DNA of 64,000 bases from Bryoerythrophyllum caledonicum. Taxonomy: Eukaryota > Streptophyta > Bryopsida > Pottiales > Pottiaceae. Position 1 is the stretch's first letter; each line of letters begins with the position of its first letter. Both the position numbers and the translations under genes were made by a program. The DNA is taken from contig OZ020514.1 in the NCBI GenBank assembly GCA_963971425.1, positions 9,553,218-9,617,217 of the forward strand, read 5' to 3'. Below the pieces are notes generated by a model. The model worked only from the letters and a program-made list of their open reading frames with translations, searched no databases and was not told the origin of the DNA. This document shows positions 11,770 through 40,700 of the stretch, one piece after another.

Positions 11770-12936
11770 CTCTTCCTCGGTTTTTACCTCGCCTGAGAGG
11801 TCCGCACTCTCCCGGTGAGGTCCAGCCGGTGAAGTCCTCCCGGTGAGGTCCTCTTACACTCTGCCGGTGAGGTCCTCTCACACAAGCCCCACCAACTTGG
11901 TGGGATTCACCCTCCTTGCTGGTGGTCCTGCTGGTCTTGCTCGTCGTGAGGGTCCTGTTAGTCTTGCTCGTCGTGAGGTCCTGCTGGTCTTGCTCGTCGT
12001 GAGGGTCCTGCTGGTCTTGTTCGTCGTGAGGGTCCTGCTGGTCTTGCTCGTCGTGAGGTCCGCGCACTTGGTCTGCAAACAGTCCTCGGTGTGAGGTCCG
12101 CGCACTCGCCCTCCGTGTGAGGTCCGCGCACTCGGTCTGCAAACAGTCCTCGTCGTGAGGGGGCGGCTTGTCTTCGCTCGGGTCGGTGAGGTCCGCACAC
12201 GCTACTTGTTTGTGCCTCCACGTCTCCCAGGGTTGCACACACCTTCCGTGTAGGTCTTCTCGGTGAGGTCCGCATACGCTCCCGGTTTGTGGTCCGCACT
12301 CGCGCTCCCTAATGAGGTACGCCCTAGGGTCGTGAGGTCCGCACACCCGGTTGGTGAGGTCGGCACTTGCCCCCTGTGTAAGGTCCGTGCACTCGCCCTC
12401 CTCCACCTTGCTGGTCCTCCACTTTATCCAGTAGTGAGGGTGCTACTCGTCCTCGCCTCTATCGGTGAGGTCCACACACGCTCCCTGATGAGGTACGCCC
12501 TAGGGTCGTGAGGTCCGCACACAAGGTTGGTGAGGTCGGCACTTGCTCCCTGTGTGAGGTCCGCGCACTCGCCCTCCTCCACCTTGCTGGTCCTCGACTT
12601 TATCCAGTAGTGAGGGTGCTACTCGTCCTCGCCTCTGTCGGTGAGGTCCGCACACGCTCCTTGATGAGGTACGCCCTAGGGTCGTGAGGTCCGCACCCAA
12701 GGTCCCTGATTGGTGAAGGTTCGTCTTCCTCGCTGGTTCCGATCGTCATGGTCGTGAGGTCCGCACACGCTTCCTGTATGAGGTCCGTTCACTTGGTGTG
12801 CAAACAGTCCTCGGTGTGAGGTCCGCGCACTCGCCCTCCGTGTGAGGTCCGCGCACTTGGTCTGCAAACAATCCTCGGTGTGAGGTTTGCGCACTCGCCC
12901 TCCGTGTGAGGTCCGCGCACTCGCCCTCCCTGTGAG
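11770..12936. repeat. Minisatellite GTGAGGTCCGCGCACTCG, left part
   Basis: Higher-order tandem array of GGTGAGGTCCGCACACGCT / GTGAGGTCCGCGCACTCGC units, with a sub-array of TGCTGGTCTTGCTCGTCGTG between about 11,925 and 12,060. Two near-identical blocks of about 170-180 bp, both containing GATGAGGTACGCCCTAGGGT, begin near 12,300 and 12,480. It continues at 25,169 beyond the inserted MULE. The long minus-strand open frames across it (e.g. 11,714-12,406) are not genes. Confidence 0.9.
12928..12936. repeat. Target site duplication of the MULE, left copy
   Basis: CCCTGTGAG, repeated exactly at 25,160-25,168. Nine bases is the length typical of Mutator-like elements. The host array does contain similar GTGTGAG words, but the left and right copies match over all nine positions and directly adjoin the inverted ends. 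Confidence 0.8.
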
Positions 12937-13008
12937 GGGGGATTGCTATTTTGCGTGCCTAGAGTGGTGAGCGGTGAGCGGTGAGCCGTGAGCCGTGAGC
13001 CGAGAGCT
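12937..13008 (+). repeat. Left terminal inverted repeat of the MULE
   Basis: Starts GGGGGATT, then GCTATTTTGCGTGCC, TAGAGT, and six tandem heptamers of GGTGAGC / CGTGAGC, ending AGCCGAGAGCT. The right end (25,089-25,159), read inverted, has the same GCTATTTTGCGTGCC followed by GTGAGCGGTGAGC heptamers. Iterated heptamers at the ends could serve as transposase-binding sites (inference). Confidence 0.9.
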
Positions 13009-13553
13009 GAAAAATAAAAATTTGTTGTGAGATTTTTTTGGAAAATAAAAAGTTTAGGAATAATTGTAGAATATAATATCTAAAATTAGTAAAATATGTG
13101 TGACCTAAAGCCGTGGAAAGAGGCCGCTTAATTTTTTGGGAAAAACATACCGTATACGAGGGTGTGATTCCATGAACGTATGGATTCATTCAACTTGGCA
13201 ATACAGGAAGTGTAGGACCTTAGACAAGTAAATTGTGAACTTACAAATAACTTGAAGTATTTCATTGTGAAATAATGTAACGAAGGTTTATTGTTTGAAT
13301 ACAAAGCATTTGACATCTTAGATAATGTCCTTATAGTTCCTGGACTTCTCCATGTAGTTTTGGATTCCAGATATTTAAATACTTGTTCATATCTCAAATG
13401 GAAGGTGTCGTGCATTTGATTGTATATACATGAGGTTGCGCCCTATCTAAACAATTGTCAATTTAGAAACACATCCGGTGGCCCTTGTAGTCTCACCGTT
13501 TTTGAATAATATAAAAGAAATGTAACACAGTGTTGAAATGCCCATACGGATAA
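13009..13553. other. MULE left subterminal spacer
   Basis: AT-rich sequence between the left inverted repeat and the end of the transposase gene. It holds the 3' untranslated region of the minus-strand gene. No further gene or convincing structure is seen. Confidence 0.6.
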
Positions 13554-16500
13554 CTACGCACTATACTGTTTGAGAATCAAAAGTTGAATAACTTGTTTGG
13601 TCTCATTCCAGCTGAAACTAGGAGCATGCATAAATACATCAACCTCAGGATCTAATCCACAGACAATATTCAGGATGAAGTAGAGGTGCTTACAGTATGT
13701 CCATTGCGCGCGTTTGCCAAGCGACTTGTCAGACATCTCCTTGAAAGATGGACAACTACAACTCGGAAACTGACCAATCACCACCAAATATGTGGAGACC
13801 TTGGAAATGCTTGTGGACTCCAAATTCACAATGCACCCTAGAGCTGGTCGCGGCACCATAAGGATCTTGCGAATTTTGCCAACCACGGAGAGTGCAGAGG
13901 CGCAACTGTTATGATGTTTTGTAGTCGGTGCCTGCGGATTTCTGCGGATATTCTTTCCATACCTCCTTGTGGGATGCTCTAATGGGTTTACGGGCGGAGG
14001 ATATTCCTCCAAGTCCACGGGCGCGGCAATGTCACTAAAAAGCTTCCTTGGAGACAATTGTAGGCGCTCGGCCAGGCGGAACCCAGCGTTTTCAAGTGCT
14101 AATATTTCCTTACTCACAAGATTCGTGCCCATCTTAACGGGCCATACATCTGGGATTTCAGGTTTGGACAAAACCCACTTCCTTCGACTGCCTTTGACAC
14201 AACGCTCGATGTCGTCATTGCAAAAGAAGAACTGCATCTTCTCATGCCTATTCTTCTTGTAGCTGTCCATCATACCTGTGTAAGTCGGGGCAACGGTACT
14301 TCTCCCGCCTTGTACGATCTTGGCAACACATTTCTTCTTTGTGATGGCCTGTTGAGCAAAACACGCTTTTGCAGAGGTTTTCGGAAGTCTAGCAATGTGC
14401 CATTGTCTCTCGTCGCAATCTGATTCCATAACATTCTTGGTGTGTTGTACTCGTAAGGAGGATGGCGGAGTCGGGGAATCAGGGGCTCGAGCTGCATCAT
14501 GTTCTTGACCCGGATATTGGACGTCAACCTCGATTGGAAGGACACTTATTTCTGGATTTATCCGTCCAGTCTTCACACGAGGGCGTGAGATACTGATCTT
14601 GTCGGGTCGGTGAGAGTCAAATTCAGAACCCGGCGGTAGATCAGCCTTTCTTTTCATTGAGAGAAAGACTTCTTCACCTTCAAGATGAGGGTCACGGATG
14701 CAAAATTCGTCGGCCCCAGGCATGTTGGAAAACGCTTCGTGAAGTACTTTTGAATTACCAGACTGTTGCGCAGTTCGTTGGGCGGCACGAAGTCGAAGTT
14801 CTTCTTTTCCTGGGCCAGTTCCAGCCTTCTCACCCTTCAGAAATCCATAATAGGCCACAACTTGCATGAAGGCACGAACCATGTCATCTACGGTTGCCAC
14901 ATATAAGTCGTTGCCTCTCTTGCCTGACTGCTGCAACCACTTGTTGTGAACGGTTTCCGCTAGATTACATGAAGGCATCTCAGCTAATTCCGACTCGGAT
15001 AAAGCCTGGAAGACATAAACAATTCTACGTCAATATGTCAATTTGGCACTATAAAAAAAAACTAATCAAAATAGAGTTGTGAATATCCTTAGCAAAGAGG
15101 GATGGCGCTATCGGCTCCCATTTAGGGGTGGTTGGCGGAAGTAATCATTGCTCGACTCAGAAGGAGGGGCCGACAACAACACCTCTTTTCGTGTGGAACT
15201 CTGAATACAACAGTCGACGACTCCAAGGGGGTGCCGACAGCGGCACCCACTCTGAAGTAGAGCAAAGATTTCAGAGGTACAACATCCAGGGAGGGTGCCG
15301 CTATTGTGACATTTGACGAGTAAAATGTGATTTATTAATTTCCGAGACTTAGGGGGGTGCCGAAGGCGGCACCTCCATCTAGCAGGAAGAAAAAAAGGAC
15401 TTCGACAATATTCAACAAATGAAAAAAAAATTGGTAGATGGTCACGTCAGAGAAAATAAAAGTGAAGTATGGGTAGCTTACATGATCCATGAAGCCTCCC
15501 CACTGTCGATAGCGGAAATGCCAAAAGGCAAGCCATAAGTCGAGTCGGACGAGGCCATCATCCGTCGTTGCTCCAGAAGATAACCACCATGATCGAATGG
15601 CGAGGTATTTAGTCTGTGCCTCCTCCATGGATGTGGAATTCTTATATTGTTTGCAAAGTCGCTTGTGTTGGTCTTGCAAGTCTGCCCTAATGTCTGCCTT
15701 TGTATGTTTTTCCAATGATTGCGTCCAATGAAAGAGGCAGGTCCTTTCCCGGTTGTCCATTCGGATATTCGCGTCTCCACTTCCGTAAGTAATACGTATA
15801 GCATTCCAATTTGCCTGTGCGCTGTCGGCCATGAAGCCTTTGAAATTCACATTTGGCATATCATGCCTACCCGCCACTGCATTCAAATTGTTCCAGAATA
15901 CTCGTTGCGCAGCGACATCCTCGGATTGCATGTCACAAATAGCAATGGTCATAACACGGCAATACGTGGAATCATACACATGGGAAGCCATTGTAGTCCA
16001 TCCTTTGACGCGCTTCACATGATCGAACATCATCCAAGAGTCTTGCAAATCACCGCCAGGCTGCATTCGGCGTACTAAATCAACACCACTCCCTGGTCCA
16101 ATCTCTGCCATCTTAAATATAAAGACCTTGTCTGCGTCTGCACCTTGTCCCGGAAAACGGTTCTCTTGGACAAAAGCCCAATTGCTAGAGCCTCTCAATT
16201 TTGTTATACTGTCCATGACTCCAAATCGACGCAAGTAACGGAATGTTGTGACTTCATTGCGGAGACTAGGGGAGGTCATCTGCTTCACCTTGTTCAAGAC
16301 AGGGACAAGTTCATCTAATCCCAAGGTCTTGTGCGGAACACCGTCAGGGCAGAGGAGCAGTTCTCCAAGGTAATCCTTACTTGCTTCCAAGATGATGGAG
16401 GAGTTTGTCGCACTGGGAGTCCGTTCAACTTGTTCCCCAATCAAGGCCCTAAGTTTTGCGTTTGACTCTCTGCAATTACCTCTCTTCACCACATGACGAT

Positions 16501-17605
16501 GATATCCCAAATGCACACATGCACGTGACATATGACTCTCTCCAACAACATAATAGACTTTAGCCATACAACTGTCTATGCATGTCGGGGGAAGCAGACA
16601 AATGGCACAAAGAACAGAAGAATTGAAAGGTGGCTCACAGCCAGGGAGAAATGAAGAGGAGGCGGTACCCTCCCACTCTGTCTCATTAGAAGGAGATGTT
16701 CGATTGGGACGTTTGAGATAGTCGCAGAGACTATTAGTGCACCTTAGGTGTCCCAAGCATGAAGACATCCGGAACGTGAGCTGCTGATCAGACTTGATGT
16801 GAGAAGTGACGGTACGAGTCCAAGCATGACCATCATGTTTCTTATCCATACCGTGGAGGTGGCCTGCCTTGGAAGAAGGAAGAGTGTTTCCAAGAGGAGG
16901 TAGTTCAAACACGATGTCTCCATCAAAAGTGGGAGGCAAAAAGTCGACTTTCTCTATGGTGATGGAATTGAAATCTATTCTACTAAGGACTGACTTTGAT
17001 CTACGCCGGGAACTCAAATTTCGGAGGCAGTCCACTATGCTTAGTGGAGACGAGGCAGATGGTGCAAGAGGGGGTTTAGATCTAGGATCGGGAACAAAGC
17101 AAGAGGACGATGGACGAGGATTGGAAGAAAGAGATGAGGATTGAAACGAAGTAATGCCAGGATTCAATGGAAGGCACTCGCAATCAGAGTCGTCACTCAA
17201 AACAAAAACATTGTCATTAACTGGCTCTAATTTGACCTTTGAAAGCAGTGGTGTGACCTCACTAGCACTAGATGACAGACGCGGTGTAAACGCAGGTAAG
17301 GGTGTTCCATGGATGCTATCGAACTTGCCATAAACTCGGTATTTCCCTGCCTTCAGCGACCAAATCTCGTCCTCACCACGGCCACTACTAATCTGAGCAA
17401 TTGAATGAGTAAGTTCACCCGTGACTGCATCAAACACTTCTCGGTCAACATGAACCGTTTCCTCAGAGATCTTGAACCTCAATGCAAGACGACTTCCACT
17501 CACAGAAGCAAAGCCAGTTTCATCTACTACAAATGAAACAGGGACTCCAGGACCATCTCCTCGAAGCAAGACACTACTGCTCAGTTCATCTTCAAGGTCA
17601 GCCAT
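13554..17605 (-). CDS. Mutator-like DDE transposase with SWIM zinc finger (2 exons)
   Basis: Predicted 1,191 residues from two exons on the minus strand: 17,605-15,482 (708 codons) and 15,005-13,554. They join in phase 0 across a GTAAGC..TTCCAG intron of 476 bp. Residues 1-270 are a unique Ser-rich region. About 280-370 is a Cys/His-rich segment (SCLGHLRCTNSLC, LCAIC, RACVHLGYHRH), probably zinc-binding. The catalytic core reads HVYDSTYC (D545), FMADSAQANW (D594), CLFHW (C623/H626) and, in exon 2, CNLAETVHNKW (E725): a DDE triad of the MULE type. A SWIM finger near the C-terminus has C1124-x-C1126, then C1146-x-H1148 (CSC..CKH). It should cut and join the inverted ends in the nucleus. The start is the first ATG of the long frame; no break is seen. 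The divergent neighbour is the methyltransferase gene. Confidence 0.87.
15215..15380. repeat. Hairpin motifs in the transposase intron
   Basis: Three occurrences of the core GGGGGTGCCG..CGGCACCC: CCAAGGGGGTGCCGACAGCG near 15,222, GGAGGGTGCCGCTATTG near 15,290, and GGGGGGTGCCGAAGGCGGCA near 15,352. The first and third can fold on themselves. The same motif builds the perfect hairpin in the first intron of the methyltransferase gene. Confidence 0.75.
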
Positions 17606-19024
17606 AATTTAGAGGACAATTGAATTGAATTCTATCAAAGACAAAGTGAATTGAATTCTAACAAAGACGACATTGAAAGAGTTGATTCAAGGGAGATATA
17701 TAGGAGTATATATACTTTAAGCCCCTGAGAGTAACTATAGCAACCATAAGGTTATTAAAGGACAGTGGGCATACGTGTATCCACGATGGATGATGCTAGG
17801 GAGACATGGAAAGGGCCGTCAAATTGCAATAATGTTGCGCTATTAATATTGATAAGCTCCGCTTCTCAGATCCTGTATATAATATTCTAATGAAAGCAAT
17901 CTTGATCTGGCAAAGAATTTGGCCAGCACTAACATGACTCTGAATTAGCTGATCTAATCTCAGAGCCGCCTTCGTACGGTTTTTCCTGGAGAGGGATATG
18001 TTTAGATTGAAACGGCCGCCACATAAAATTATAAGAAATTGAAAATAACAAAGAATTCGAGTCACTTCCACGATCTGAACACAGAATTGGTGGGATATTT
18101 ACAATAATTTAGAAAAATTTGAATAAAAATGAGCAGACTTGCTGAATTAACTACGTTGAAACCTTGAAAGAATGGCCGCTAAAAGGTGGTGGTGAAAGAG
18201 GAGTTGAATGCAAGTAGAATCATAATTCAAAAATTATGAAGAGGCAAAAGAGAAAAGCTCTGTACTTTAGTGATGCAAAGACGCTAAAACGGAGTAGGCA
18301 AATGAGAGAGAAGAAGTCGATGCCGAGGGAGATAGATTCAGGCGAGACCGCAAGGGTTTTAAATTTTGAGGATGCATCTGACTTGAGTCCAGTTATGAGT
18401 TGTCGGAGTGGTCTGGAGCTTCAGAGAATTGCAGAGCACGTTACGGAGGATAAACAACCCAATTTCGATTTGCAATTCAACGGCAAAGGAATTTGCACCC
18501 CCCCGAGGTCGGCCATGGATTGCGATCAATGTGAGTTAATTCAAGTCCAAGTTATGTTTGTCTTTGTGATTTTAGCATTTTGTGCGAGGTCCAAGATGTC
18601 AAAGGCTGAAAAGACCCTAAAGCCGTTAAGTCAATAGTCTTTTGTTACATATGGCCAAGTCTTGTTCCCGTCCAATCCCGTCGTGAGTTCCCGCCCTTAC
18701 CCGCCCTTACGTGCCATTTTGAGAAAATAGGGTTTTATTGCTGCCGATATGAGGTAGACAGGAAGAACCATTTCTATTTGCTAAGGGTTTCGAGGCATTC
18801 GCAGTGAAGAAGAGAGGAGGAACGATTTCATTCAGTGTAGGGTTTCACGATAGTGCGCAACTGATTGCACTCACATGCTTGCTTGATGAGTTCACAAAAT
18901 CTAAATCTAACGTGAGGCTTGGACGCAAGTCGTCGCAGCCGAGGACAACGGGCTTCAATCTGATCGAAAGAGCGACACCCACAGCCTCGAGATTGAGGGA
19001 AGTTGCGATCATCGAAGACTCGAC
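17606..19024. promoter_or_regulatory. Divergent intergenic region with possible upstream exons
   Basis: The two gene starts face away from each other here, so the region should hold both promoters. An open frame at 18,236-18,530 (MKRQKRKALYFSDAK, basic and nuclear-localisation-like) ends at a good donor, AAT|GTGAGT. It joins in phase to an open stretch after the acceptor CATTCGCAG at 18,804 (LKKRGGTISFSVGF). If spliced at the strong donor after 19,031, that frame ends soon afterwards, making an upstream ORF. If spliced at a weaker GTATTT donor near 19,042, it would extend the methyltransferase protein at its N-terminus. The sequence cannot decide. Confidence 0.5.
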
Positions 19025-22000
19025 ATGGAGGGTAAGCATCTCATGTATTTCCTCCTCTTCTTCGTAATCCTTGAGTTTATTCGTTATTTTCTCTATCGAT
19101 ATCTGCGGCGCCACCTTCGAGGGGGTGCCGCTGTCGGCACCCCCTTGCGGATCGCGACTTTGGATCACGGTCGGCACCCCGTAGGAGAGAAGGCGGCAGC
19201 TGCACGTCGGGGGGGCGGGGCTGTCGACATTGACAAAGCCTTCCCCGAGGGGGTGCCGACAGCGGCACCCCCTCGGGGAAGGCTTTGTCAATGTCGACAG
19301 CCCCGCCCCAAAGTTGCGACCCGCAAGGGAGGTGCCCACAGCTGTACCTCCTACAGGATGTTGATTTTTTTTTCCAGTTTCAGTGAACCATTAGCACACC
19401 ATTTAGATATTCACCACCCTTCTTTCCGTGGTGATGTTTTCAGATTCTTCTTTCAATGAGATGCTAGAGTCCACCCAACATGATCAGGAGAACGAAGGTA
19501 TTGGTAATGTGATTGGACTTACTTTTGTTTTGTTTCATTTTGATTTCCAAATCTCATGTGGTTTTCCATGATATTGCAGAAGTCCAGCCGTTGATAGAGA
19601 CGGCAGACCTTGATTTGGAGGACCCAAATGAGAATTCGAAGCTTATGTCCGCCGACGAGCTTGGAAAGGAGATGGATGAACTGGTCATCAAAGAATCTGT
19701 GAATACTAACCTTGTGTTGGAAAGGCTCCGATTTAAACCAAGGCACAAATCAAAGTTGAATATTCCTCTATGCAGAATGATTTCATTACCGGTAGTTCGA
19801 CCTTCTTTGAAGAATGATGTGATGGGTTTGGGTGCGCATTTTGTGAGCACGGGATATATGGATGGCCACGGTGTATTCTACGTGGCTATGGAGGACAACG
19901 AGGGCAAGACGGTAACTGTCACCCAAGCCATTTCAGATTCTTGGAGTCCATTGTGGACTCAAGCAAATGAACAATTTGAGACTGAATTGGAGATGGATGA
20001 GGATTTAAAGCAGTTTTCTGGAAGAATGTTCCATGTTTGGGATGGGAACCACAGATTACAAGCATGGATGCCAATAATCAATCGAGACCATTCCAACGAT
20101 GCTAAGTGGCATTATGCGGTGGAATCTATTATCCTCAATGTGGAGGGTCAAGTGGCTCCTCTACTAACAGCTCTTCACCAAGTTAACTGGTATGATTACC
20201 ATTTGCTTTCAGTTAGTTGGTGAAATTAAATTCTAACTTATGAATTTGAGCTTGCAGGAGGAACCAAAAATCTCACGTCACCATGAACCTTGTCCACAAA
20301 TTATATCGTATTCAGGGCATTGCCGGGCAGCCACTACAGTATTTTGAGTCCTTGGTGAGCAAGGATGAAATTTCAGCTGCCGAGGCAAAGCAGAAGTCCA
20401 AGGACAGAACATGGTATACCTTGACATTCAAGTCTCTAATCGCAATTCTTTATCAGGTATTCTTGCTCTTCTATAACATCTACTCAGTATACTTGCATTT
20501 TTCATCAATGTTATAGTGGATGCTTTCCCCTACTTCAATTGTTGGTGTGTTGATCAGAATGTTCAGTGTTGTTGACGCGACACCTTGCTTGGTTTTGTAG
20601 CAAGAGTTGGGGGAGGCAGCTGCTCATGCTAATCGAAAGTTCAAGGAGAAGTTTCCAGATGACTCTCTTTGGACTTCCGCCAAGTTTCATGACTTTGTTT
20701 CAGCCGCAATTGAGAAAGTGAAGGTTCAACTAACATCTGAGCTCAAGAAGCAATTGCCAATTGCTGACCCCAAGCACACTTCCCAGTTTCTTCAACAAGT
20801 TCGAATCCACTATGAGGACCGCGAAGATGATCCTGAGATGTCTCAGGAGAAGCTCTACTACCTCGCCACCTCCGCTATGGTCCCAAGCATGAAAGTGAAA
20901 TGGTTGGAAAGGTGGAACAAGCCATCTTCCCTTCGTGAACAAGTTCGCTTTCCAAAGTCTAAGTTCCCAGACCATGACTTTCCAGAATGGCTTCACAAGG
21001 CCACATGGTGGGCTCAGGTACAAGCTGAATTACCATTCTTTGATAGTGTTATTTCATTGTGCTTCTATTTCTTACTATTGTTTGAATGGTAATTGCAGCT
21101 TTCAGGGGAGACTGAATCATTGTTCCAAGGGATATTATCTGACATGGAGGTTAATATTGACTACTTTCCTGAGCATGGTATGCCTATCCAAACAATACCC
21201 GAATATGTTGAACAGATGCGCGTGCAGCTCTGGGATATTGCCTTCCATAACGAGTTTAAGGGGAAGGGAGTTCATAAGAATAATCCACCCGAGAAGCAAG
21301 TAGGACTTAAGCAAGCCATCAACCGGACTCTCTACAGGTACTTCATGTACATTCTATTCCCGAGGAAGGCAATTTATCGTACTCCACCATCCTTCTCCAA
21401 TTACTTGGAGAAGACTAGTGATATGTTCATGTTCACTGACGATATCATGAAGACATGGGGGCGTGAGCATTGGGAGCGTTGTGGTTGGTATTTGGATTGT
21501 CCCGTTAAGAGGCCTCCTTCATTTGATATCGAATTACGGAACAGTGTCCAGCCAGATCTATTGGGTACGGAAACAATACTTCCTTCTGTTTCTACAGAAC
21601 TTGGTGCGAAGAAGACCCGTGTCTCCAAGAGAAAGGCTACCGCTGATGCTGAAGTTGTTGCTAAAGCAAAAGCAGAGTCAGAGGCTGCCGCGAAGGCTGA
21701 ATTGGAGGCTGCAGCAGTGGAAGTGGCCAAAGCACTTGCCGCCGCGAAGGCGGAACTAGCCTCACAACATGCTCAGCTGATCACTTTGGCCTCCACCGCT
21801 CGTATTGATGACATTGAGATGTTGGATTCAGAGTCCTTAGTGGCGCCCTTGCAGTCTCAGAGGAGATCAAAGCGATCAGCACCCGAAGCATCGAACGCTT
21901 CAAGTCCCCTTTCACAGAACTCTAACATGCTTATCATGACGGTGAAGGCTGGGAGAACCTCGCCACCTCCACCAGCGAGTGTCTTTGTAGACAACACATC

Positions 22001-23647
22001 AATCTCTATGATCATGGATTCTTTCCCTGACCAGCATTCCACGCTTCTTGCCATGAATAAGTTTGTCCTCCAGGTACTTAAGCTAGTTTTTTACATCTCA
22101 ATTTCAAGATATGTCTATTTCTTTTCTTGCCATGAATAAGTTTGGCCTCCAGGTACTTCAGCTTGTTTTTTACATCTCAATTTCAAGATATGTCTATTTC
22201 TTTTCCTGTACTTATTGATTGTTGTTGTCCCAAAAGAATAGGATTGTTTTACAACTAGAACTATAAATTATCCTCTTCATTGTAACAAAACATCCAATGC
22301 CATTGTTTCAAAACACTATTACTGACTTGTGCTTGTCCAGGCGAGGAAGAAAGCTTGCAGTTCAGGTCGTTCAGCTCACTGCCCTCACAGTGGATTCGAC
22401 TTGATCTTGGCAGACATCCCTGACGGGATGCCGGTTCCATCCATCTCGAAGCATACAAATGACATTCCAACCTGGAACGAGTATTCGATTCCGGTCGTGG
22501 AGAGCTTATTTGAGTTTTCAGATTTCTTCCTCCATGACAAGGGCGGGATGCTAATCTTCTTGCCCGAGGTCCCCTCTATCCGGTCCGATGTGTTGTCTTA
22601 TGCGGGTGGATACGGTTTCAAAATCCTCAGAGATTGGTGGGCAATAAACGACCTCCCATTCACCTCGCACATTGATGCTTCGCTGAAGGTGCGCTTAACC
22701 GATCCTCCTTCTTACATTTCAGATGTTTTATTTGTTGATTTTATTGTATATCTCATTCTAACTGTCTCTATTGGATTCGACGTGCATTGCAATCGCAGTC
22801 GCGTAGGTTCCGTGTTTTGTTCCTTGTTCGACAGAATGTGGATGTTGCCAACTTCAAGTTCAATAAAAACGACGCCCTCTGTGAGATGGGAATGGGCGTG
22901 GAAGAATCCGATGTTCTTTTCAATTTCACCTCTGCCGAATCACAGTCCATGCGAGGATCCATTCCATGGAGGGGGCCACGTGAGAAGGACGCTACCTTCC
23001 TCCAGATGTTGATCGAGGCTTTATCACAGCCTCAAGCGGTTGTTCTAGATGCGTTTGCCTCTATCGGTGAGTCTTCTTCATTTCTTAAGCAATGTACATA
23101 ATTGTAGTCATAACTAATTTTGTTATTCCTTTGCAGGAAATTCTGTGCGCGCATGCCAGATGTCCGGCCGTCATATTGTTGCTTTGGAAAGCGACACCGT
23201 TGTCTTCAACGAGAAGTTGAAGGCCCTATCATCGCCATCAGTCGATTCGACCATCCCAAGCGAGGCGCCTCTAATGGCAACTCTCTTAGACGAAGACATT
23301 CCTATCCGCAAGATTGTGAAAAGAAATAGACTGAGTACGTAAGTTCAAAGTTGTTAAATTTGAAATTCTCTGCCATTCTCTGTGAAGAATTCCTTGATTT
23401 GATAACCTAATTTCTCTATGGACTCTGCAGTCTGATTGCCAGGGCGGCTTCCCCAACCAAAGATTTTCTGCTGCCACCTTGGGCCGCCCATGTCGCAGAC
23501 TTAATGGCGACTACCTCGTCTCCTCAAATCCATACCCACAATCGGCGATATGATTCCCATGTGCTCCATTTTCTAGATGTAGAAGCAGACGTCGAAAGAC
23601 ATGTCCTATCCTCCTCCTCGGCCTCTAGTTCGTCTGCATCTGCGTGA
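19025..23647 (+). CDS. ParB-like / beta-class DNA amino-methyltransferase protein (10 coding exons)
   Basis: Inferred coding exons: 19,025-19,031; 19,444-19,497; 19,580-20,189; 20,258-20,456; 20,601-21,017; 21,099-22,073; 22,341-22,688; 22,799-23,066; 23,137-23,338; 23,431-23,647. All introns are GT-AG and the frame is open for 1,098 codons to TGA. Residues about 85-185 end in FHVWDGNHRLQAW, the box II-like motif of ParB/sulfiredoxin-fold domains. About 225-590 is unrecognised. About 600-655 is an Ala/Lys/Glu coiled coil. Residues 755-990 show a beta-class N6/N4 methyltransferase order: motif IV-like FDLILADIPDG (779-783), HDKGGMLIFLPE, motif X-like REKDATFLQMLIEAL, then motif I-like VLDAFASIGNS (951-962) and GRHIVALESD. 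Motif IV is DIPD instead of DPPY and motif I lacks one glycine, so activity is uncertain. ParB-methyltransferase fusions are known in phages and bacteria. The role here (marking element DNA) is inferred. Confidence 0.82.
19118..19352. repeat. Fold-back element with perfect 47 bp hairpin in first intron
   Basis: Arms 19,212-19,258 and 19,263-19,309 are perfect reverse complements (47 bp) separated by the 4 bp loop ACAG. Outside them, a second imperfect inverted pair (TTGCGGATCGCGACTTTGG against CCAAAGTTGCGACCCGCAA) extends the structure. The core GGGGGTGCCG..CGGCACCCCC also occurs three times in the transposase intron. It could be a small fold-back transposon or an RNA structure affecting splicing. 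Confidence 0.85.
22048..22205. repeat. 79 bp tandem duplication over a splice donor
   Basis: Two adjacent copies of a 79 bp unit containing TGCCATGAATAAGTTTG, CCTCCAGGTACTT and TTCAAGATATGTCTATTTC. The first copy includes the end of coding exon 6 and its GTACTT donor. The second places an identical donor in the intron. Use of the second donor would add 79 bases with a stop codon, so the first is probably the productive one. Confidence 0.9.
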
Positions 23648-25088
23648 GCACACTTTTTATCTTCTGTGGACTCTCCTTTTTCTTTGGCGTTTATGTTATG
23701 ATCTGTTTGTAAACGATCCTTATCCTTTAGAATTTCCATATTTTGTTTCCATATTAGCAGTCTCAATTCAAACTTCTATTTGGTCAATTATTGAATTCCC
23801 GCCTTTCTGTAATTCAGTGCACGATTGTTTCATTGGCTGCTAACATAATGTGGCTTGCAAAATATATATTTCTTTTTGTCATCCTCACAACCAAATTTCA
23901 TGCTACACTTCTTGGCTATTTCTTTAGTGCTATAGCCCAATATATCTTCATCCTATTACATTATTTGCTTTAATCTTCCTTCATTTGGTGATCTCCATAT
24001 CTTGAACTCTTGGAACGTTAAAGACAAGTACAAATTTAACAACATATTTACATTGTGAAATTTTTGCCTTCAATTACCCAACTTGTTGTATCTTCCATGA
24101 AGAGTGTCGTTGTGAAATTTGAAGTTCATATATACGCTTGCTCAAGCGTAAGCACCCATGGAGTATATTAACCTGATTCATAGTTCTAAAACTCATGCAA
24201 TAGCAAGGAATACAATGAATAACCAATGAGAATCACTAAAGTACTATGAGTTGCATGCCTTTTGCTCTGTTTGGTTTCATTCATATTCAATAAGATTAAT
24301 GTCTGGAATTTTGATTGAACCGTGTCGTCTTTCAGATTGCGAGATTTAAATTTGTTCCTCAGATTAAAAATTTTGTCGATTCATGAAGACTTTCATTGTA
24401 GGCCATTTAAATTTACTAAGTTTATCATGTACCAACAAGTTGAGCAATGTAAAAATTCAACAATGCTCTGGAATGAAGTTTACTTTACATATAATATGCC
24501 ACTGCAAAACTGTCTACCTAGCTCCTACTTTGACCAGTAATTTAATATACAAAAATCCTTCCTATCATCTCTTCCTACACAAGCACTCTATTCTCCCAAG
24601 TCCACATTTTCCACTATATATATGAGGTATCTTTAATCATTATAATTTGTATCCTAAAACATTCCATGTTTTCTACGGGTATTCTGAAATTTAAAATATA
24701 CTATTTATTTCTATTATGTACGATCATGCAACGTAACTGGCATTGCATTTTCTATGAATGCTGATAAAATGTAAAAATCAACACACAAAATGGTTTCATA
24801 TAAACATGATGCTGAATAATAGGGATATTTATGCAACATCACTTATTGAAGAGAGTTTTGGAAATCCACGGTCATAGGGTTTCTACAACCCTCATCAATT
24901 TCATTCACCACCCCCTTCTTAAAAAGTACCTCCCTAGGTACTTTGGTATACAAACAAATAAATCATATAAGACTAGGAATCCATGGCTATAGGCCCTCTA
25001 CCGTCACCTTTTGCTTTAATTTTCACTTTCTCATTTACATTAATTCCAACTTTATCAATAACTTTTCCCAAAAAATGCCCCACTATTT
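23648..25088. other. MULE right subterminal spacer
   Basis: AT-rich 1.4 kb between the methyltransferase stop codon and the right inverted repeat. It holds the 3' untranslated region and no coding sequence I can support. Confidence 0.6.
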
Positions 25089-25159
25089 TACTCTAGGCTC
25101 ACCGCTCACCGCTCACCGCTCTCCGCTCACCGCTCACGGCACGCAAAATAGCTTCGTCC
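25089..25159 (-). repeat. Right terminal inverted repeat of the MULE
   Basis: Read inverted from 25,159: GGACGAAGCTATTTTGCGTG, then CC and heptamers GTGAGCG / GTGAGCGGAGAGC, closing with GGTGAGCCTAGAGT. The TAGAGT word also follows GTGCC at the left end, so the heptamer block is placed slightly differently at the two ends. The target duplication CCCTGTGAG follows directly. Confidence 0.9.
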
Positions 25160-25168
25160 CCCTGTGAG

Positions 25169-25510
25169 GTCCGCGCACTCAGTCTACAATCAGTCCTCGT
25201 CATGAGGGGGCGGCTTGTCTTCGCTCAGGTCGGTGAGGTCCGCACACGCTACCTGTTTGTGCCTCCACGTCTCCCTCGTACTGCCCGCCGTTAGGTGCTG
25301 TTGTGGGTGCGGTCTCACCGGCCGTAGGATCTTCTCGATGGGTCCCTCCCACCTTCTCCTTGATGGTTTCCGCACCACCTTCCTCACGGTGGTTTCTGCA
25401 CCACCTTCCTCACGGTGGTTTCCGCACCACCTTCCTCACGGTGGTTTTCGCACCGGGGTTTCCGCACCGGGGTTCCGCACCGGGGTTACGCACCGAATTG
25501 TTGACTTGCT
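25169..25510. repeat. Minisatellite of LTR-like fossil, right part
   Basis: This continues the GTGAGGTCCGC array cut by the MULE; the block CGGCTTGTCTTCGCTC matches one at about 12,160. It then changes to a second tandem array of about 23 bp, CACCTTCCTCACGGTGGTTT, from about 25,370 to 25,450, followed by GCACCGGGGTTTCC units. Confidence 0.85.
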
Positions 25511-25809: not shown

Positions 25810-28495
25810 TTTCGATTATACACCGCCATCGTACAATGCCATGAGGACGAAATACATTGAGCCTGTAAAAAAAAAGTGAAAGACCTTGTGGACAAGAAGA
25901 CCGGCATAGATATTGCCAAGTATGGGGCAACAATATGCTCGGACGGGTGGGACAATGTTACACGTCGCCCTCTCATGAATGTCATGCTCGTATGTCCAAT
26001 GGGTGATATCTTCTTCGGGCCTATAGACACCACGGGTATGAAGAAATCTACGGCATATATAGGGGACCAATTGAAAAGTTTTATCCGTAAGGTTGGACCA
26101 TTGAATGTGGTCCAAGTGTGCACCGATAATGCTTCAAACATGTGAATACATAGGGGCAATGAAGAAGGTCAACGATGAGTACCCGCACATATATACTCAA
26201 GGGTATTGTGCACATATTTTGGACCTCCTCCTCGAGGACTGGAGGAAGGAAGGCATGTTTGCAGACCTTGTCCAGAAGGCAAAACAGATTGCATTGTATA
26301 TCCGGAACCACCATGTGCCCATGGCCCTTTTTCGTCGATTTTCGCCAAAATTGTCTCTGTTGTGGCCAGCAGCAACAAGGTTTGCATGCAATTACATAAT
26401 GATCCATCGTCCGTTGGAAGTGAAGAATGCCCTGGAGATGGTTATGATAGACCCAGCATGGGTATCCTACGTATCCTCTCTTTTCGATAGGCAAAACGGG
26501 CACCGTGCCCATGCGAAGGCATCACGGGTGCGAGCCACCGTTCTAGACGAGACTTTCTGGCATCGGTGCACTAACTTTGAATTTGTAGTCGCACCAGTAC
26601 TAAAGGCATTGCAGACTTTTGATGGTGACACTCCGGCAATGGGAATTGCTTGGGTGACCATGAACAGGCTAAAAGAGCACGTGTTCAAGCTGCGCAATGC
26701 GCCATTCAACATGCTTGACGGAATTGCAACTTGCCTCGAAGGATCATTCCTACGGCGTTGGAAGATGATGACAACAAATCTCTATTATATAGGGGCTTTA
26801 TTGAATCCTTATCTAGCCAATAACTTGCAAATTCAAAACAATGGTGAGGCCAAAAGGGCCCTAAACAAGATTGTTATGACGCTCTATGGTCCACTCGGAG
26901 TGTCTTTTTCGGCAGTAATGCTCGAAATCACGGAGTATGAAGAATTGTGAGGCCCATATTCACCGAAGGAAGCTGGGGAAATTGAAAATAGCAACCTCTT
27001 GCCTCACCAATGGTGGAACCGCGTGGGCGAGCAATCATTGCCTATCATTGCGAAGCGTATACTAGCACAAACATGTTCGGCCTTGTCATGTGAGCGTAAT
27101 TGGAGCATGTATTCGTTCGTGCATAGTAAGAGCCGAAATCGCTTGGAAGTGCAGAAAGCGGAAGATTTGGTTTACATCTACACGAATAGTCGATTGCTCC
27201 GAGAACGTGCTCGACCAGACCCGATTCGATGGTATGAGGTGAATGTGCATTCAGAGGAGTCTGATCGAGATGGGAGACTTCCTTCAAACACAGAGGACGA
27301 GGGCTTGGAGTCGGATGATGAGGGTTACAACTGGATGGGCGTCGATTGGGAAGACCTTGCCGGTAACAACAATCTTGTGTCTGATCATTGTCCACCTAGG
27401 GACAACTCTGCAAACAACGAGCACAGTGGAGATGCACTATATGACCATTTTCACAACGTCCACGGTGACCCAGCGGATCCTTTTGTGTTTGATGATGTCG
27501 ACGCAACGGCAGTCCATACTGTAGTAGAATTATCGGGTGAAGACCGTGCCCAAGAAGCTAGGGCAGACGAAGATGGGTCGGCATTGGGGGGCAATCTTGA
27601 TGGAGATGACAACATCTTGGAGAATTAGTCTCCCAACTCAAACGGCTCTAGCGCCTCAGGCCCTTCTAGTGGCAATGGCCCTCATATCGACGGTCATGGC
27701 ATTGGCATTACAGCAAACGATACATTTCCTCACGATGGAAACGAAGTGAGCAGTGCTGGAAACAATATTGAATCCCATGAGCCAATGGCCATCACGGGGT
27801 CCATTGAAGTTGTGAGAAGCAATGCGGTTTTGCCTCCAGCAATAGAACCGGACTCAAAGGAAGACATGCCACTCCAAGATTTGTTTCAGCGGCCACGTGC
27901 TCAAAGTACCGCATCGATCGAAAGAACTCTTTTACGCGTAAAGAAAAAGACCTCTTTAACAATAGTTCGGCCACCCGTCCACCGTAGCGCACTCGGCCCA
28001 AATGGTGGTGTGGAGCGTGCGATACTAACCCCACAACTTCCCTCCGCGAGGGCAGGGTCCTCTACTATGAGCAGCCATTTAGGGACACGGAGGGGCGAGA
28101 ACAATGGTACTCTCCCTTTCTTCACAGGACCTTGGCGAAGTGGAACCTCGAAGAGAGTCATTGGGGTCAAAGGCAACCGCTCCAAAAACATGGATGGAGT
28201 AACAGACAAAAGGAAGAATATCCGAGTAAAACGACTTGTGAACGCCGCATCAACTACTGGAGCCGAGCTACAACTACGAAACTTGGCCCCGGAGATTGAG
28301 GAGTACGTGGCACCAGTCTTGGAAAATGCAGCGGAGAACTTCTCATCATTGGGCGATGATGCAGACGATGAGGATTGCGATGAGGTACCTGGCGACAATA
28401 CGGTGGTGCTTCGCGTGCTTTCTCTTCCCCAATATGTTCGCCGATCAAAATGGAAGCGGAAACACAATGAAGAATCCTCAAGTTCAGATGATTAA
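25810..28495 (+). pseudogene. hAT transposase, catalytic core, dimerisation domain and long C-terminal extension
   Basis: It resumes with FDYTPPSYNAMR, then the DUF659 block ICSDGWDNVTRRPLMNVML and VVQVCTDNASNM, carrying the first two catalytic Asp positions. The RNase H-like middle follows, then the hAT C-terminal dimerisation motif (WWNRVGEQ.., SCERNWSMY, HSKSRNRL, EDLVYIY). Beyond this is an unusual extension of about 430 residues: acidic first, then basic, ending KWKRKHNEESSSSDD. Breaks in this host-type DNA transposon: a one-base slip in an A-run near 25,870, another frameshift near 26,142 just after NASNM, an in-frame TGA at 26,948 and an in-frame TAG at 27,626. Downstream of 26,142 everything stays in one frame. 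The element can no longer make this protein. Confidence 0.88.
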
Positions 28496-34404: not shown

Positions 34405-37400
34405 ACCACCTTGGTAGAGAAATGAGGATTTAATGACATAAACACCGCCTCGGTGAACACGGTTGCCGCCATCAACCCCACCACCACTCTGACCACCAAC
34501 ATACGTAAGAGGTGGCCTCTGATGCGGCCAAAGGCCACAAAAAAGTTCATTTGGAGCTAACTACTCTACGAAGGACATTATTCGTGAGACTGGTGAATAC
34601 ATCAACGCCAGCAATGGTGAGGTATACACAAAAGTTAATGATGTTGAGAAACTAATGAGTGTCGCTTTGTCCCTAATGAAAGATATCAAGTCCAACCATG
34701 AGGCGTTATCTCACTCCCCCCCAAATGACCCTTCAAACGTGGATTGACAACAGACCGCCCATAAATTCTCTAGCAACTAGGTGATCATGGGACTATGTTA
34801 CATCTAGCTCTATTTCTCTTTAGAGACATACTAGTGCTCTCTTACTCGCAAGAACTTTCACCCTATACTACTACCACACCACAAAACTCTTAAACTACCC
34901 AACACACACCCAAACACGGCACACAAACAAACACCATTTACAAATCACTACACCATATACACCCTCAACTCAAACAATTATTTGTCTCTTCCCACTAACA
35001 CGTTTCCACACACACATATCCCTAAAAACCTTTACAACCTTTCCCACAAAACTATCATACCAACTTTCTACATCACACCAATCATACATACATCTACAAC
35101 TCTACATAAGAAATACAACCCAACCACACCTTGCTTCCCCCAACTACAACAACACTTACAACATCTACACAACCACCCCACATCCCAACAATACAAAATT
35201 CGACTACTCCACACCTCCCCCCCACCAATACTATGCATAAAACCACTTTTAGCGTACACCATCAAAACACACCTATACCGCCGTAGCCCACAACCACCCA
35301 TCCACCCGTACGACTCTCACATGCTCTCACCACAATTCTTATTTTTTCTTCCGTGGAAGGTAACAACACATTAAAAGGACAGAACCATAACAACAATACA
35401 ACATGGACTAAGACACTCTTTAACACCCTATCTTCTATTAAAAAAATCCACATATACAACACATCCATAGCGCTCGCCTCCACCTCCGTACAATCCAACA
35501 ACACTTCTTTCAGCACAAAGACTCAATACACAACAACTTACACAACCCCATTGACGCTTATTCCATCTCCTCCACAACCATTGAAATCTAGCAACAAATT
35601 TCCTTCCTCTCCTACACTTCTCGCCACAACCTTTCAAAACTTTGAAACCATCAGCACACACATCCTCCATACCCACAATCTTATCCCTTCCACAACCATT
35701 ATACAAAACACCACCATAAGCAAAACACAAATAACCCCCAAGATCAAAATTCAACCACAAACAATAACAATAAAAATAATGAAATGAAGCATAGAAATTC
35801 TAAACACTCCGCCCTATTCTTACTAATAAATGGAAACATCATCCACTACATAATATTACTAACAATGTGTCGAGACATAAAATCTAATCCTAGTCCAATG
35901 CCAACGTCCTACACAATCATCCAAAACAAAAAAATGCCTAACACATACCCATGTACTCCATCAAACATACACCTCACTCTACCCTCACATTTCTCACTTT
36001 GTACAACAAAATAAATAACAATAATAATAATAAAAATAATAATAACCACCCACCTCAACACATTATCTACGCTTTAATTGTCACCCTCCACTCCTCAATA
36101 GATGAATGTAATAACACCATTGGCCAACACACTACAAACACTAATCCAATATATTTGACAAATCTATTATTAAACACCCTCTCCTCCCTACAAACACACC
36201 CTAAAAGACATATCAAAAGAAAACATCCATACACCAAATTCCTAGAAGAAAACCAACACATCTCGCAACACAAAAACTCATTCCACAACAACTTATATAC
36301 CTTCATCCATAGTCAAACTCCATTCCCTATCCTTAAAACAACACAATTCAAATTTCTCTTCTTCCCAAACAATCTTCTTTACAAGGCTCTACAATGTTTT
36401 GAACCAATTAATGCATACAAACATCCCCTCGCCACCTATCTACATCCTCTCTTGCCCTCGTAACCCAAATATGGAAGATAGAAACACCTACATGACAACA
36501 TAGAACGCCTCAACACTAAATACCGCCCTACAATGCATTTACAATCTAGCTTTTCAAACTAACACATCCCTCTCTATAATTGCCATTCAAGAAACTAAGC
36601 TAACCACTACAAAATCCACAAAATCTATACAAAAAACTTTTCCCGACTACAAACTCATATTCAAGAATACACATGCACTCACACAATGTATCCAACAACA
36701 AATGTCATATACACCGGTGAGAGGTGGACTTCTCATGCTCATACACCAATCTAATGCTTTTCCCAGAAACATTACCAAAATCCCTACCTTGGTTTAACAT
36801 ACCGCCATAACTACAAATCATCAAAATTGCAAATCGACGACTCCAACCATGGCTTATTCTACATTTATACATGCCCTCACATTTAGAAGACTCTAGACTT
36901 ATTCCAGATATCCAAAATTCCATCACCACTCCAATAAACTCACACACCAATCACACAATAATACTATGCGGAGACTTTAATCAAGACATTGCCCTCCTCG
37001 AACGACCAAACGGCTACGTCTTTATCCCTCTATTTGAAAAGACTACCCAATGGCGAAATTACACGGACAACCTAGAACTTGCATATATCCCAACGGACAC
37101 CTCATATTCTAGACAAGGCGGACTGAACTTCACACACACGAGCCTAATAGAAGGATTTTATATAAAAACATCAAATTTCATCTACTACACAGCTACTACT
37201 AACAACACAACCAATTTAAACTTGGACCACTTTCCAGTCTAAGTCAATATTCCCCGTAACATCCTTCTTAGGAATACCTCCACAACCACAAATCCAAATA
37301 ATATTATAATACTCAACTCCATTCCCAAAGAAAACCTACAAAACTTTAATACAACATTTTAAAAGAAAATCCTCACAAATTGACAACCTCACAAATACCC

Positions 37401-37712
37401 TTACAATTACAAACACCTCACAGAAACACAATGGCAAGAAGCTTGCACTCCTTGAATAGCCTAATTAACACAATTTCTAATACCTTAGAAACAACTTGTA
37501 AGGAGCCACCTATACCACAATTGACACCCAGAACCTCACAACAAGGAAGTTACCTCCCTTGCAAATTCGCAAAACATTGGAAACAACACCTTGCCACATA
37601 CTACACCACACAAAAAGCATCATTTTGTAAAAACTAACCCCAATTGACGTACCCACCATATACTCTCCAAATTTCAAAACCTTCGCCATATTTAAATACG
37701 ACAAGTACCACC
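34405..37712 (+). pseudogene. LINE ORF1 tail, spacer and AP-endonuclease, plus-strand copy
   Basis: 34,405-34,747 is the ORF1 tail (KDIIRETGEYINASNGEVYT..). About 34,800-36,460 is A/C-rich low-complexity sequence belonging to the LINE, with no recognisable domain. From about 36,500 the second ORF shows an apurinic endonuclease: LSIIAIQETKL, TIILCGDFNQDIALLER, SYSRQGGLNFTHTSLIEGFY and LNLDHFPV (the Asn-x-Asp-His signature appears as L-D-H). After it comes CKEPPIPQLTPRTSQQG, shared with the minus-strand copy at 53,300-53,400. Several stops and frameshifts are present. The endonuclease nicks target DNA to prime reverse transcription. Confidence 0.75.
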
Positions 37713-40700
37713 TGTCGTAGTCTAGTGGTTCGTAATTCTCAAAGTTGACCAAAATTAACCTTAACCCCTAAAGTTCCTTGACAATTCCCCTCAAAAACTA
37801 TAAGTGGTACTAACTTTCAAACCACAAATCCAAAAAATAAAATAAAAATATGTCCACCAAGCTCTTATCAAAGGCAATCTAGCTTTAAAATTTCAGAGAA
37901 AATTGATTTTTTTTTAAATTTTAGGAACCTGCCCAAAAATCAAGGAATCCCTCCGAAAGAGACACTGGTCCATTAGGGGTTAAGCAAGCCTACCTTACCA
38001 TATCGTTTCCAGGGATTTTTATCGTGCATCAAACTCTTTAAATCTTAACAACAATTCATATTTAATACCTCGGCACATTCCGGAGGATGGCTTCTCCGGT
38101 ACCTTAGTTATCAATAACAAGTAACCACATGTATTTCAGTTAAACTCTGTTGAGCGCCAGAGTAGATTTCCGGTAAGTTTTTATAGTGCCCGAAAAGTCA
38201 GTGCTCTCCGTTCCTGCAATCCAGACGCCACAATATCCACAATCTAACCCTACACCTTGAAGAGTTAAAAAGGTCGCAACCGGTTTACCGGTCTTCACAA
38301 TCTACCGGGAACTTGTCTCGGTAAACCGGTCACGCAAGCCCGGGTTTCAACTACAACCACACCCGATGAATCAAACCAAGAAGATACAAGACTCACAACA
38401 AGTTAGTACTAAGCAAATCATATGAGCAAGACAACCTTCCACGGGGATTGTCGTAACTAGTCCACTATAAGGGTAGAAACCCCAGAATTCTCCGGACTCA
38501 GGCTTAGCCGGGATCTCTCCCGGTGTACCAAGGGGAGGGATATCACCCCTCCTCTCCACCAATCCAAACACTTTCCACTTAAAGGAGGCTATCATAAATA
38601 GCCGTGGGCTTCCCGGATCCTATCCGCCAAGACAACTCTTTTCGCTCCCACCAGTGAAGGGTTTGGAGTATAGATCCCGGATCTCACTCTACCTATCTAA
38701 CCTGGATATCCTACACCCTCGGGAAGTCTCTACTCACACTCAATCACATAACACACAACAAGTCACAACCTTGTATACCTAACAAATACACACTAAAAGG
38801 ACTCAACTCTCTCCCGGTCCACTCACACAAGCTCAACAAAGACTCTAAACACAAGCAATGAAGGCAAGACACGAGCACATCAACAAAAAGAAGAGTATTT
38901 AATACAAAAGCCCAAGGCTCTTTAAGTACACAAAGGCTACTAGCTACTCTCCAAACGTAGATCCCCAAAAGGTGGAAATGGCATCTAGAGAGTGCACTAA
39001 AGTCAACAGTTACCCTCCATATTAAATCCTCAAAAGGTGGAAATGGCATCTAGAGAGTGCACTAAAATCAATAGCTACCCTCCAAAAGTAGACCCATTAA
39101 AGGTAAAAACGGCATCTAGATCCTAAAATCAAGGGTAGCCTAGTCACCGGCGGATTACTGGTAGACCGATAAACCGGAAGACTTCCGGTCCCGAGACCAG
39201 TGAACCTTTCCCTTACAAAAGTAAGTAGTCGGAGAAACCACTCAAATCATAGTGACTGGGTGCGCAATGAGGCCCCATCGACATCACTACTCTAGTGTTT
39301 AAATCTAGCAACTTAAAACAACATCTCACCAACCGGTGAGATAAATCAACAATAACACATAACATATAACAAAGGCTCAACCGAAAGACTCTTCTGATTG
39401 ATACATGTAGGGATTGTCACTACGGCTGGAAGTACCCACATGGTCGAGAGAATCCACCGGAAGGTCAGATGTCTCAACTGGGAGGTCTACCGATGGAGTG
39501 GGAATATCCACCAGAAGGTTGGGTGTATCTATAGATACACTTGGAGTCTTCTTAAGATCAATTAGTATAGCCACAGAGGACTCCACCAAAGACTCCGGGG
39601 GTGAGGAAGGGAGGTCAACCGGTTCCTTCTTGGTAGAGTTTACCGGGAGGCTTTGTTTTCTCTCATAGACCTTCACGCCCCAGTCCTTAGAGGATGGGGA
39701 ATCTACCCGACTCACCAGTAGAGCCATGTTGTCCGAGGTGGACAAAATCCTCAAAATGCATGTACTTCCACCAATCTCTCTATTAACTTGTCACAAACTC
39801 CGGTCCGGCCCGGAAATACAAGTCTACCGGTCAACCGGTGGACAACTCTGGAACACTTTGCTAGAATATGTGGATATAGGTGTCTCACATATCTATCAAC
39901 ATACTAACAACACAAGATCACATAAAATCGTAACAATGAGAGGACTTTGGAGACAAAGACTTAGAAAGAGGTTTTCCCGGTTGACCGAGAAGACCGGAAA
40001 AAATATAGAAAATATAGGCAAGACCTAAAAATGATAGGAGGATGGAGAAAACTCAAAAGAATGACTTGCCACAAGGCTAAGACAATAGACAACAATAAAT
40101 ATGAAACTAATGTAGACTTCACATGTATACTAGGTCACAATAAGGTCTAGATAGAGTCCACCAAGGGACTTTTTTTCTAGACTGGGGAGGATGTTACAGG
40201 GGAGTCACCCCGGTAGAAAAGAAAGAAAAAGACTTACAAACAAGGAATTTGCACAAACAAGAGAAACCCAACATGGACAAGAATCACCTTTGTTTTCCAA
40301 CTCCTTGTTGCACCCGCAACCTCCTTTCTTTGTCTCTTTTATCTTCTCGCCTTGGCCACGAATCTCCTTGCTCCACCAAACCCTAGGTATCTCCACCACC
40401 ACCAAACCCTAGCTTGCCCGCACCCCTTCCACCACCTTCAAAACATTTGAAAAGCCTCCTCTTCTTCTTCTTCTTCCTTATTGCACCACCTCTCCTTCAC
40501 TTCTTTGACTACTTCTTCAAACCCCAACTCCAAAAAAGACCAAATAGAGGGAGAGGGAGAGGGAGAACTTATGAGAGAGAGAAAACTTGACAGGGAGATA
40601 GAGGAGAAAATTTTAAGGGGGGGGGGTTTATAGAGGGATGGGGAGAGAGAAGAGTTCTGGAGGCGGGAGAAGAACTACTGGAGGGGGTCTGGACTCTGTT

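Follow-up and report, generated by a model that had tools for sequence, protein, structure and literature searches.

A MULE-like transposon carrying a conserved accessory gene that joins a DGNHR motif to an altered amino-methyltransferase-like domain

Introduction

Why should a transposon carry, next to its transposase, a gene for a protein that resembles a DNA methyltransferase, and does that protein methylate DNA at all? The question is raised by a transposon of about 12.2 kb that occupies positions 12938–25160 of a 64-kb stretch of DNA from Bryoerythrophyllum caledonicum (Pottiaceae; assembly GCA_963971425.1, contig OZ020514.1, positions 9,553,218–9,617,217); this whole stretch is called the window here, and positions are counted from its first nucleotide. 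The element holds a transposase gene and, divergent from it, a second gene that we call gene 2. A preliminary description, made from the sequence itself, suggested that gene 2 may encode a self-carried DNA-modification enzyme and knew of no MULE described with such cargo. According to the available text of one report, brown, green and red algae have transposons whose accessory proteins combine ParB and N4/N6 methyltransferase parts (PMC12477816), which makes this a known kind of cargo. Its vehicle, which resembles the Mutator-like elements (MULEs), is apparently unreported in the literature searched: no MULE with this accessory gene was found described there, which is weak evidence of absence as subscription literature fell mostly outside the search. 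We find that gene 2 is under strong selection in its relatives and has a replaced catalytic residue in all three members compared, hinting, at the level of sequence, that the role of its protein may be to recognise DNA and not to methylate it.

The methyltransferase-like domain

By sequence comparison the C-terminal part of gene 2 belongs to the amino-methyltransferase families, and the homology is solid for the portion that contains motifs X and I. The gene 2 protein matches PHROG 6952 (phrog_6952) with an expectation value (E) of 1.4e-7; it scores 24.8 bits against a profile built from 12 phage adenine methylases, where the best of 1,000 shuffles gives 8.0, with 1.7 bits coming from motif IV and then 20.8 bits from motifs X–I; and hhalign of the methylase part yields E 2e-7 over 63 columns, in the X–I part only. 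The matches to PF01555 (E 6e-4 and 1.1e-4 for the window protein, and 1.7e-5, just below, for a relative introduced in the next section) all stay under the gathering score. Comparison of the methylase part with the PDB finds RsrI weakly (E 0.0035; by profile 0.022), and a tblastn search of phages with the same part returns 384 distant records, the best at E 6e-3 among the matches listed. Of 20 loci, 12 entered the phage methylase alignment, namely L001 and 11 of the 19 that had been found; a stop excluded L017, and L005, L015, L018, L019, L021, L022 and L023 were omitted, most of them as duplicates or fragments.

Motif IV of such enzymes is (D/N/S)-x-P-(Y/F/W), and active beta-class enzymes need the aromatic residue at its fourth position; motif I forms the GxG loop for S-adenosylmethionine (SAM). 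Gene 2 has the motifs in the beta-class order IV–X–I, as had been described previously, but its motif IV reads DIPD and not DPPY. The pattern D-[IV]-P-[DE] is found in all three members compared (DIPD in the window, DVPE in both relatives), and three alignment modes agree on it, whereas 12/12 phage enzymes in the alignment carry DLPY or DLPF at this place. Motif I reads DAFASIG in the window and DITASTG in the relatives, with the first glycine changed to serine in 3/3, and the QKP position of motif X reads REK plus D or S. The members keep the aspartate and proline of motif IV as well as the acidic residue that follows motif I. Since both the motif IV aromatic residue and the motif I glycine are replaced in every member compared, it is doubtful from these sequences that the protein is an active methyltransferase: the active site appears non-canonical though the domain is conserved. 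DLPF at residues 954–957 was considered as the true motif IV and rejected; it lies mid-domain, 79 residues past DIPD, and the relatives have GLPL in its place.

Relatives of both genes and selection on gene 2

A 53-residue stretch of the transposase matched 45 places in bacterial genome contigs, one of which encodes a relative. It lies on a 4.1-kb contig (L097) titled uncultured Synechococcales cyanobacterium, in a metagenome assembly (G005), and two further contigs of the same assembly (L107 and L098) hold relatives of gene 2. The genes of these relatives have GT-AG introns, and four of the six L107 introns match window gene 2 introns in alignment column and phase, so the three contigs are apparently misbinned eukaryotic DNA in a cyanobacterial metagenome-assembled genome. 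These relatives of both genes, from a second, apparently eukaryotic source, are new here. The L097 transposase is 56% identical to that of the window over 304 core residues and 45% identical to its exon 1, with an intron that by eye has the same place and phase; the L107 gene 2 protein (1,136 residues) is 28.7% identical to window gene 2 over 1,060 aligned positions, and a single exon encodes almost all of its methylase-like part. A gene 2 profile search of 386 genomes and a transposase search of 388 (partly the same ones) gave clear relatives in G005 only, with one short weak match to the motif X–I part in each of two other assemblies (G154, E 1e-4; G252, E 3e-5). No close relative was confirmed in IMG/VR by exact peptide patterns from the methylase part, the transposase and the ParB region.

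The ratio of nonsynonymous to synonymous substitution rates (dN/dS), computed between the two G005 relatives of gene 2, is 0.107 overall (876 codons; bootstrap 0.084–0.143). It is 0.042 before the linker (330 codons), 0.175 in the linker (211 codons), 0.030 in the methylase-like part (226 codons; bootstrap 0.007–0.069) and 0.49 in the tail (109 codons; 0.23–1.14). Gene 2 is thus under purifying selection in these relatives, most strongly in the methyltransferase-like domain. The two copies may be paralogues, alleles or derived from two species; the conclusion of purifying selection is independent of which.

Gene 2 and its DGNHR region

As previously described, gene 2 is an open multi-exon gene; the earlier length of 1,098 residues becomes 1,194 in our model of ten exons. 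The first of these is uncertain, as the gene of the relative begins near window exons 2–3. A 79-bp tandem duplication (96%) at 22045–22205 spans the exon 6 donor site, and the frame meets a stop at 22139, ahead of the second donor.

The preliminary description also joined a DGNHR ParB/sulfiredoxin-like motif to the amino-methyltransferase. The motif is there, as WDGNHR in both members that cover the region (the window and L107; the partial L098 is without it), and the methyltransferase-family domain is there as well, but only the DGNHR motif gives the region its putative ParB label, and two profile comparisons, reported with the points against our interpretation below, failed. A Pfam search for ParB in gene 2 and the relative found no match, the nearest ParB hint being phrog_1033 (ParB-like; E 0.23) in the relative. 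A PDB search with the ParB part gave nothing meaningful, and a phage tblastn search with this region gave four records, all at E 2 or worse. An AlphaFold2 model of exon 3 alone did not resolve the fold (predicted local distance difference test, pLDDT, 35) and counts neither way. The ParB profile was built from E. coli YbdM and 25 of 71 viral loci chosen by hand, of which 24 were kept (one was dropped for a stop); a further ParB alignment used 11 of the 71 viral loci and YbdM.

Palindromes in the noncoding DNA of the element

GC-rich palindromes recur in noncoding DNA beside gene 2 in both lineages. The window element has four of the form GGGGGTGCCG-N4-CGGCACC(C/T)(A/C)C; the transposase intron holds one pair and gene 2 intron 1 the other. 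Their core, GGTGCC-N6-GGCACC, has four exact sites in the window, all four inside the element; with up to two mismatches there are ten window matches, six of them in the element, where shuffles average 1.35 and none of 100 reaches ten. A general scan for GC-rich palindromes likewise finds four in the element, where 100 resamples have a mean of 0.05 and a maximum of 1. On L107 a different palindrome, GGGTCTCGGATCCGAGACCC, is present in four copies (two exact, two variant) spaced 106–109 bp apart upstream of gene 2; the pattern of this palindrome occurs at three places in G005, all on the L107 contig, and the reversed control at none.

The element and its transposase

The previously proposed anatomy of the element, 12.2 kb long with heptamer-rich inverted ends, is confirmed (Table 1). 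Its target-site duplication (TSD), given before as 9 bp, is 8–10 bp, and if 9 bp is taken the ends had been placed one base off. The 10-mer CCCTGTGAGG is found at the two flanking sites only in the whole window. Joining the flanks with a single TSD copy brings a 26-bp unit of the surrounding array back into register, so the element inserted into an array of such units. The arms of the terminal inverted repeats (TIRs), 12945–13006 and 25091–25152, are 62 nucleotides long and 89% identical, with a local score of 41, where none of 300 shuffles exceeds 11, and tandem GTGAGC[CG] heptamers are present in both TIRs. GC-rich minisatellite arrays flank the element at 11800–12937 (units around GTGTGAGGTCCGCGCACTCG) and 25162–25500.

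Two divergent spliced genes, open across their junctions, had been described, and this stands: the introns of gene 2 are GT-AG, and five stop-free frames, two of the transposase with 757 and 491 codons and three of gene 2 with 348, 236 and 228 codons, all exceed 225 codons, the maximum of 200 Markov resamples. Codon usage discriminates poorly, the correlation between the two genes being 0.84 in frame where the out-of-frame values are 0.73 and 0.81. The window gave no match in Rfam and tRNA scans.

Assignment of the transposase to the Mutator-like group is likely; the TSD (about 8–11 bp is expected of MULEs), the TIRs, the SWIM-like finger and the D-D-E residues picked by eye favour it, and profile support is weak. 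A Pfam search of the window transposase gave no MULE family match. Its relative matches PF00872 (Transposase_mut) below the cut-off, at E 0.037 and 0.014, alongside an about equally weak beta-lactamase match, and PF04434 (SWIM) at E 3, also below the cut-off; the CxC...CxH pattern is visible by eye in both proteins. AlphaFold2 with exon 1 and one relative was uninformative (pLDDT 31) and counts neither way. KDZ and hAT identities of the transposase were rejected, as no Pfam match to any such family was found.

Table 1. Positions of features of the transposon and its two genes in the 64-kb window
Feature	Position	Strand	Details
Left TSD	12930–12937		CTGTGAGG, up to CCCTGTGAGG from 12928
Left TIR	12938–13006	+	starts GGGGATTGCTATTTTGCGTGCC; GTGAGC[CG] heptamer array 12962–13007
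Transposase gene	13554–17605	-	exons 17605–15482 and 15005–13554; 1,191 residues
SWIM-like zinc finger, CxC...CxH	13686–13760	-	in transposase; Pfam PF04434 E 0.037, below cut-off
Candidate D-D-E residues	16024–16022 (FDH), 15826–15824 (ADS), 14957–14955 (NLAE)	-	picked by eye
Palindrome, 24 bp	15227–15250		one mismatch; transposase intron
Second palindrome	15353–15376		one mismatch; transposase intron
Gene 2	18236–23647	+	ten exons, GT-AG introns; 1,194 residues in present model
Gene 2 exons	18236–18530, 19444–19497, 19580–20189, 20258–20456, 20601–21017, 21099–22073, 22341–22688, 22799–23066, 23137–23338, 23431–23647	+	
Palindrome GGGGGTGCCG-CTGT-CGGCACCCCC	19121–19144		perfect arms; gene 2 intron 1
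Palindrome	19249–19272		perfect arms; within 98-bp inverted repeat 19212–19309; gene 2 intron 1
DGNHR (ParB/sulfiredoxin-like) region	19580–20456	+	DGNHR codons 20041–20055, residues 271–275
Beta-class amino-methyltransferase-like domain	22341–23338	+	motif IV DIPD 22413–22424; motif X from residue 1026; motif I DAFASIG from 23048
Right TIR	25091–25160	-	heptamer array 25097–25137
Right TSD	25162–25169		CTGTGAGG, up to CCCTGTGAGG at 25160–25169

Elsewhere in the window, a remnant of a hAT-type transposase lies to the right of the element at 26105–27625 (DUF659, E 2e-4, below the cut-off; hAT dimerisation region, E 2e-7). The stretch from about 34800 to 46000 has a strong strand asymmetry, with a GC skew down to -0.72 and a plus strand rich in A and C, and a 377-codon stop-free frame at the window edge (62868–63998, minus strand) has no Pfam match at E 0.01.

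What gene 2 may do for the element

Related arrangements are known from several systems, which we compare here through the available portions of the reports. The Sola1-1_Ec32 protein of Ectocarpus (1104 residues) is, like that of gene 2, a single protein of about 1,100 residues with a ParB-like part (here by motif only) and an amino-methyltransferase part, encoded on the strand opposite the transposase (PMC12477816). Unlike that algal Sola-1 element the vehicle here is MULE-like, with its 8–10 bp TSD and SWIM-like finger, and the catalytic motifs of gene 2 are altered, the algal proteins being compared by their published description only (PMC12477816). The anti-silencing protein VANC of the Arabidopsis VANDAL MULEs is also the product of a MULE accessory gene and appears comparable in its association with short motifs that are repeated in the introns and the upstream noncoding DNA of the element, but no methyltransferase domain is mentioned for it in the accessible text (PMC5735166, PMC10398659). 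A DNA-modification gene is carried as well by the fungal DNA transposons with TET/JBP dioxygenases, which are another enzyme and act on 5-methylcytosine (5mC) (PMC12730594). Retrotransposons of Symbiodinium and Klebsormidium and DIRS elements encode DNMT- or Dam-like DNA methyltransferases (PMC5890265); these carriers are retroelements, their 5mC enzymes belong to another family, and no ParB-like part is mentioned in the portion of that report at hand. The bacterial ParB-methylase Bce_0392 has a ParB domain fused to an adenine methylase and is prokaryotic (PMC5512222). A survey of MULEs lists accessory open reading frames (ORFs) and SET domains, and the word "methyltransferase" is absent from its main text as far as that was available (PMC6446971).

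The interpretation that we favour, tentatively and at somewhat less than an even chance, is that the MULE-like transposon carries in gene 2 a long-lived ParB-like/amino-methyltransferase accessory gene whose product is a VANC-like, sequence-specific self-recognition factor acting on the DNA of the element. The DGNHR domain would dock on the repeated palindromes and/or the terminal heptamers in noncoding DNA, the altered methyltransferase domain would act as a base or SAM sensor or as a DNA clamp, and the outcome would be that noncoding regions of the element are kept open against silencing, or that the transposase is loaded, as with VANC on VANDAL MULEs. We prefer a VANC-like mechanism by analogy, because the targets of VANC are likewise short repeated noncoding motifs. 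A more elaborate version, unlikely as a whole, is that a bacterial-type ParB-methyltransferase fusion was co-opted by eukaryotic transposons and became a conserved pseudo-methyltransferase, which lost catalysis, kept its SAM- and DNA-binding shell and provides parS-like self-recognition; it would dock on intronic and promoter palindromes specific to the element and shield the element from silencing or license the transposase, and palindromes and protein would evolve together, as in the case of VANC and its targets.

Several observations weigh against self-recognition through gene 2. Against a YbdM-like ParB profile the DGNHR region scores 0.7, less than the 4.9 of the best of 1,000 shuffles, and hhalign with that profile gives it a probability of 0.4%. 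Motif IV is placed with less certainty than motifs X–I; since hhalign covered X–I only, its placement relies on order, spacing, a weak profile match and the alignments, and DIPD/DVPE might be an unusual yet active site. The G005 relatives of the two genes sit on separate contigs, where linkage is not seen, and the gene 2 copy of L098 is partial, with a stop near its 3' end. Among the palindromes, the rest of the window has four GC-rich ones of other sequence, L107 has additional ones outside its upstream array, and a GC-rich scan with 8-base arms found none on L097 and the partial L098; the two lineages have palindromes of different sequence, which may be no more than ordinary fold-back repeats. 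This last point is a separate question, and there is close to an even chance that the intronic palindromes, instead of being binding sites, are repeats that form hairpins, either as fold-back insertions or as sources of hairpin RNA, and have no relation to gene 2. Their intronic location, the 98-bp near-perfect inverted repeat that encloses one of them and the sequence difference between lineages fit this; the confinement of the exact core to the element within the window, and the presence of a different palindrome array upstream of the relative's gene 2, do not.

The main rival explanation for gene 2 itself, which we regard as rather unlikely, is an active N6-adenine/N4-cytosine methyltransferase that marks copies of the element, the idea of the preliminary description and also the suggestion of the Ectocarpus authors. 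Much about the domain suits such an enzyme: its solid X–I homology, its IV–X–I order and spacing, which fit the beta class, the retained motif IV aspartate and proline and post-motif I acidic residue, and the strong purifying selection in the relatives. The activity is put in doubt by the aspartate or glutamate found in place of the motif IV aromatic residue in 3/3 members, by the serine at the first glycine of motif I and by the altered QKP of motif X, and the alternative DLPF is mid-domain and GLPL in the relatives. Gene 2 could instead encode a second transposition protein that binds the ends or nicks DNA and so aids excision or integration by the transposase. Its divergent position beside the transposase and its long conservation agree with this, as do a report that a bacterial ParB-methylase nicks DNA and the apparent need for mudrB in integration (PMC6446971); many MULEs in that same survey carry a single ORF (PMC6446971), and we consider this role quite unlikely. 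It is very improbable, and disfavoured, that gene 2 was captured as a passenger and does nothing for the element, even though MULEs reportedly tend to pick up fragments of host genes: dN/dS is about 0.1 between the relatives and 0.03 in the methylase-like domain, both genes have relatives in a second source (at 29% identity for gene 2 and 45% for the transposase), and the same kind of protein is reported from other transposon superfamilies.

Conclusions

The family is amenable to direct tests: it has copies whose frames are open, its candidate target sites are defined and its catalytic positions are clear. Should accessory proteins of this kind turn up repeatedly in algal and plant-like transposons, yet with altered catalytic sites, a test would first be needed of the published suggestion that they write N6-methyladenine or N4-methylcytosine on their own DNA. 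If self-recognition by gene 2 is true, it would be a second, independently evolved anti-silencing system of the VANC type, built from the parts of bacterial plasmid partition and DNA methylation.

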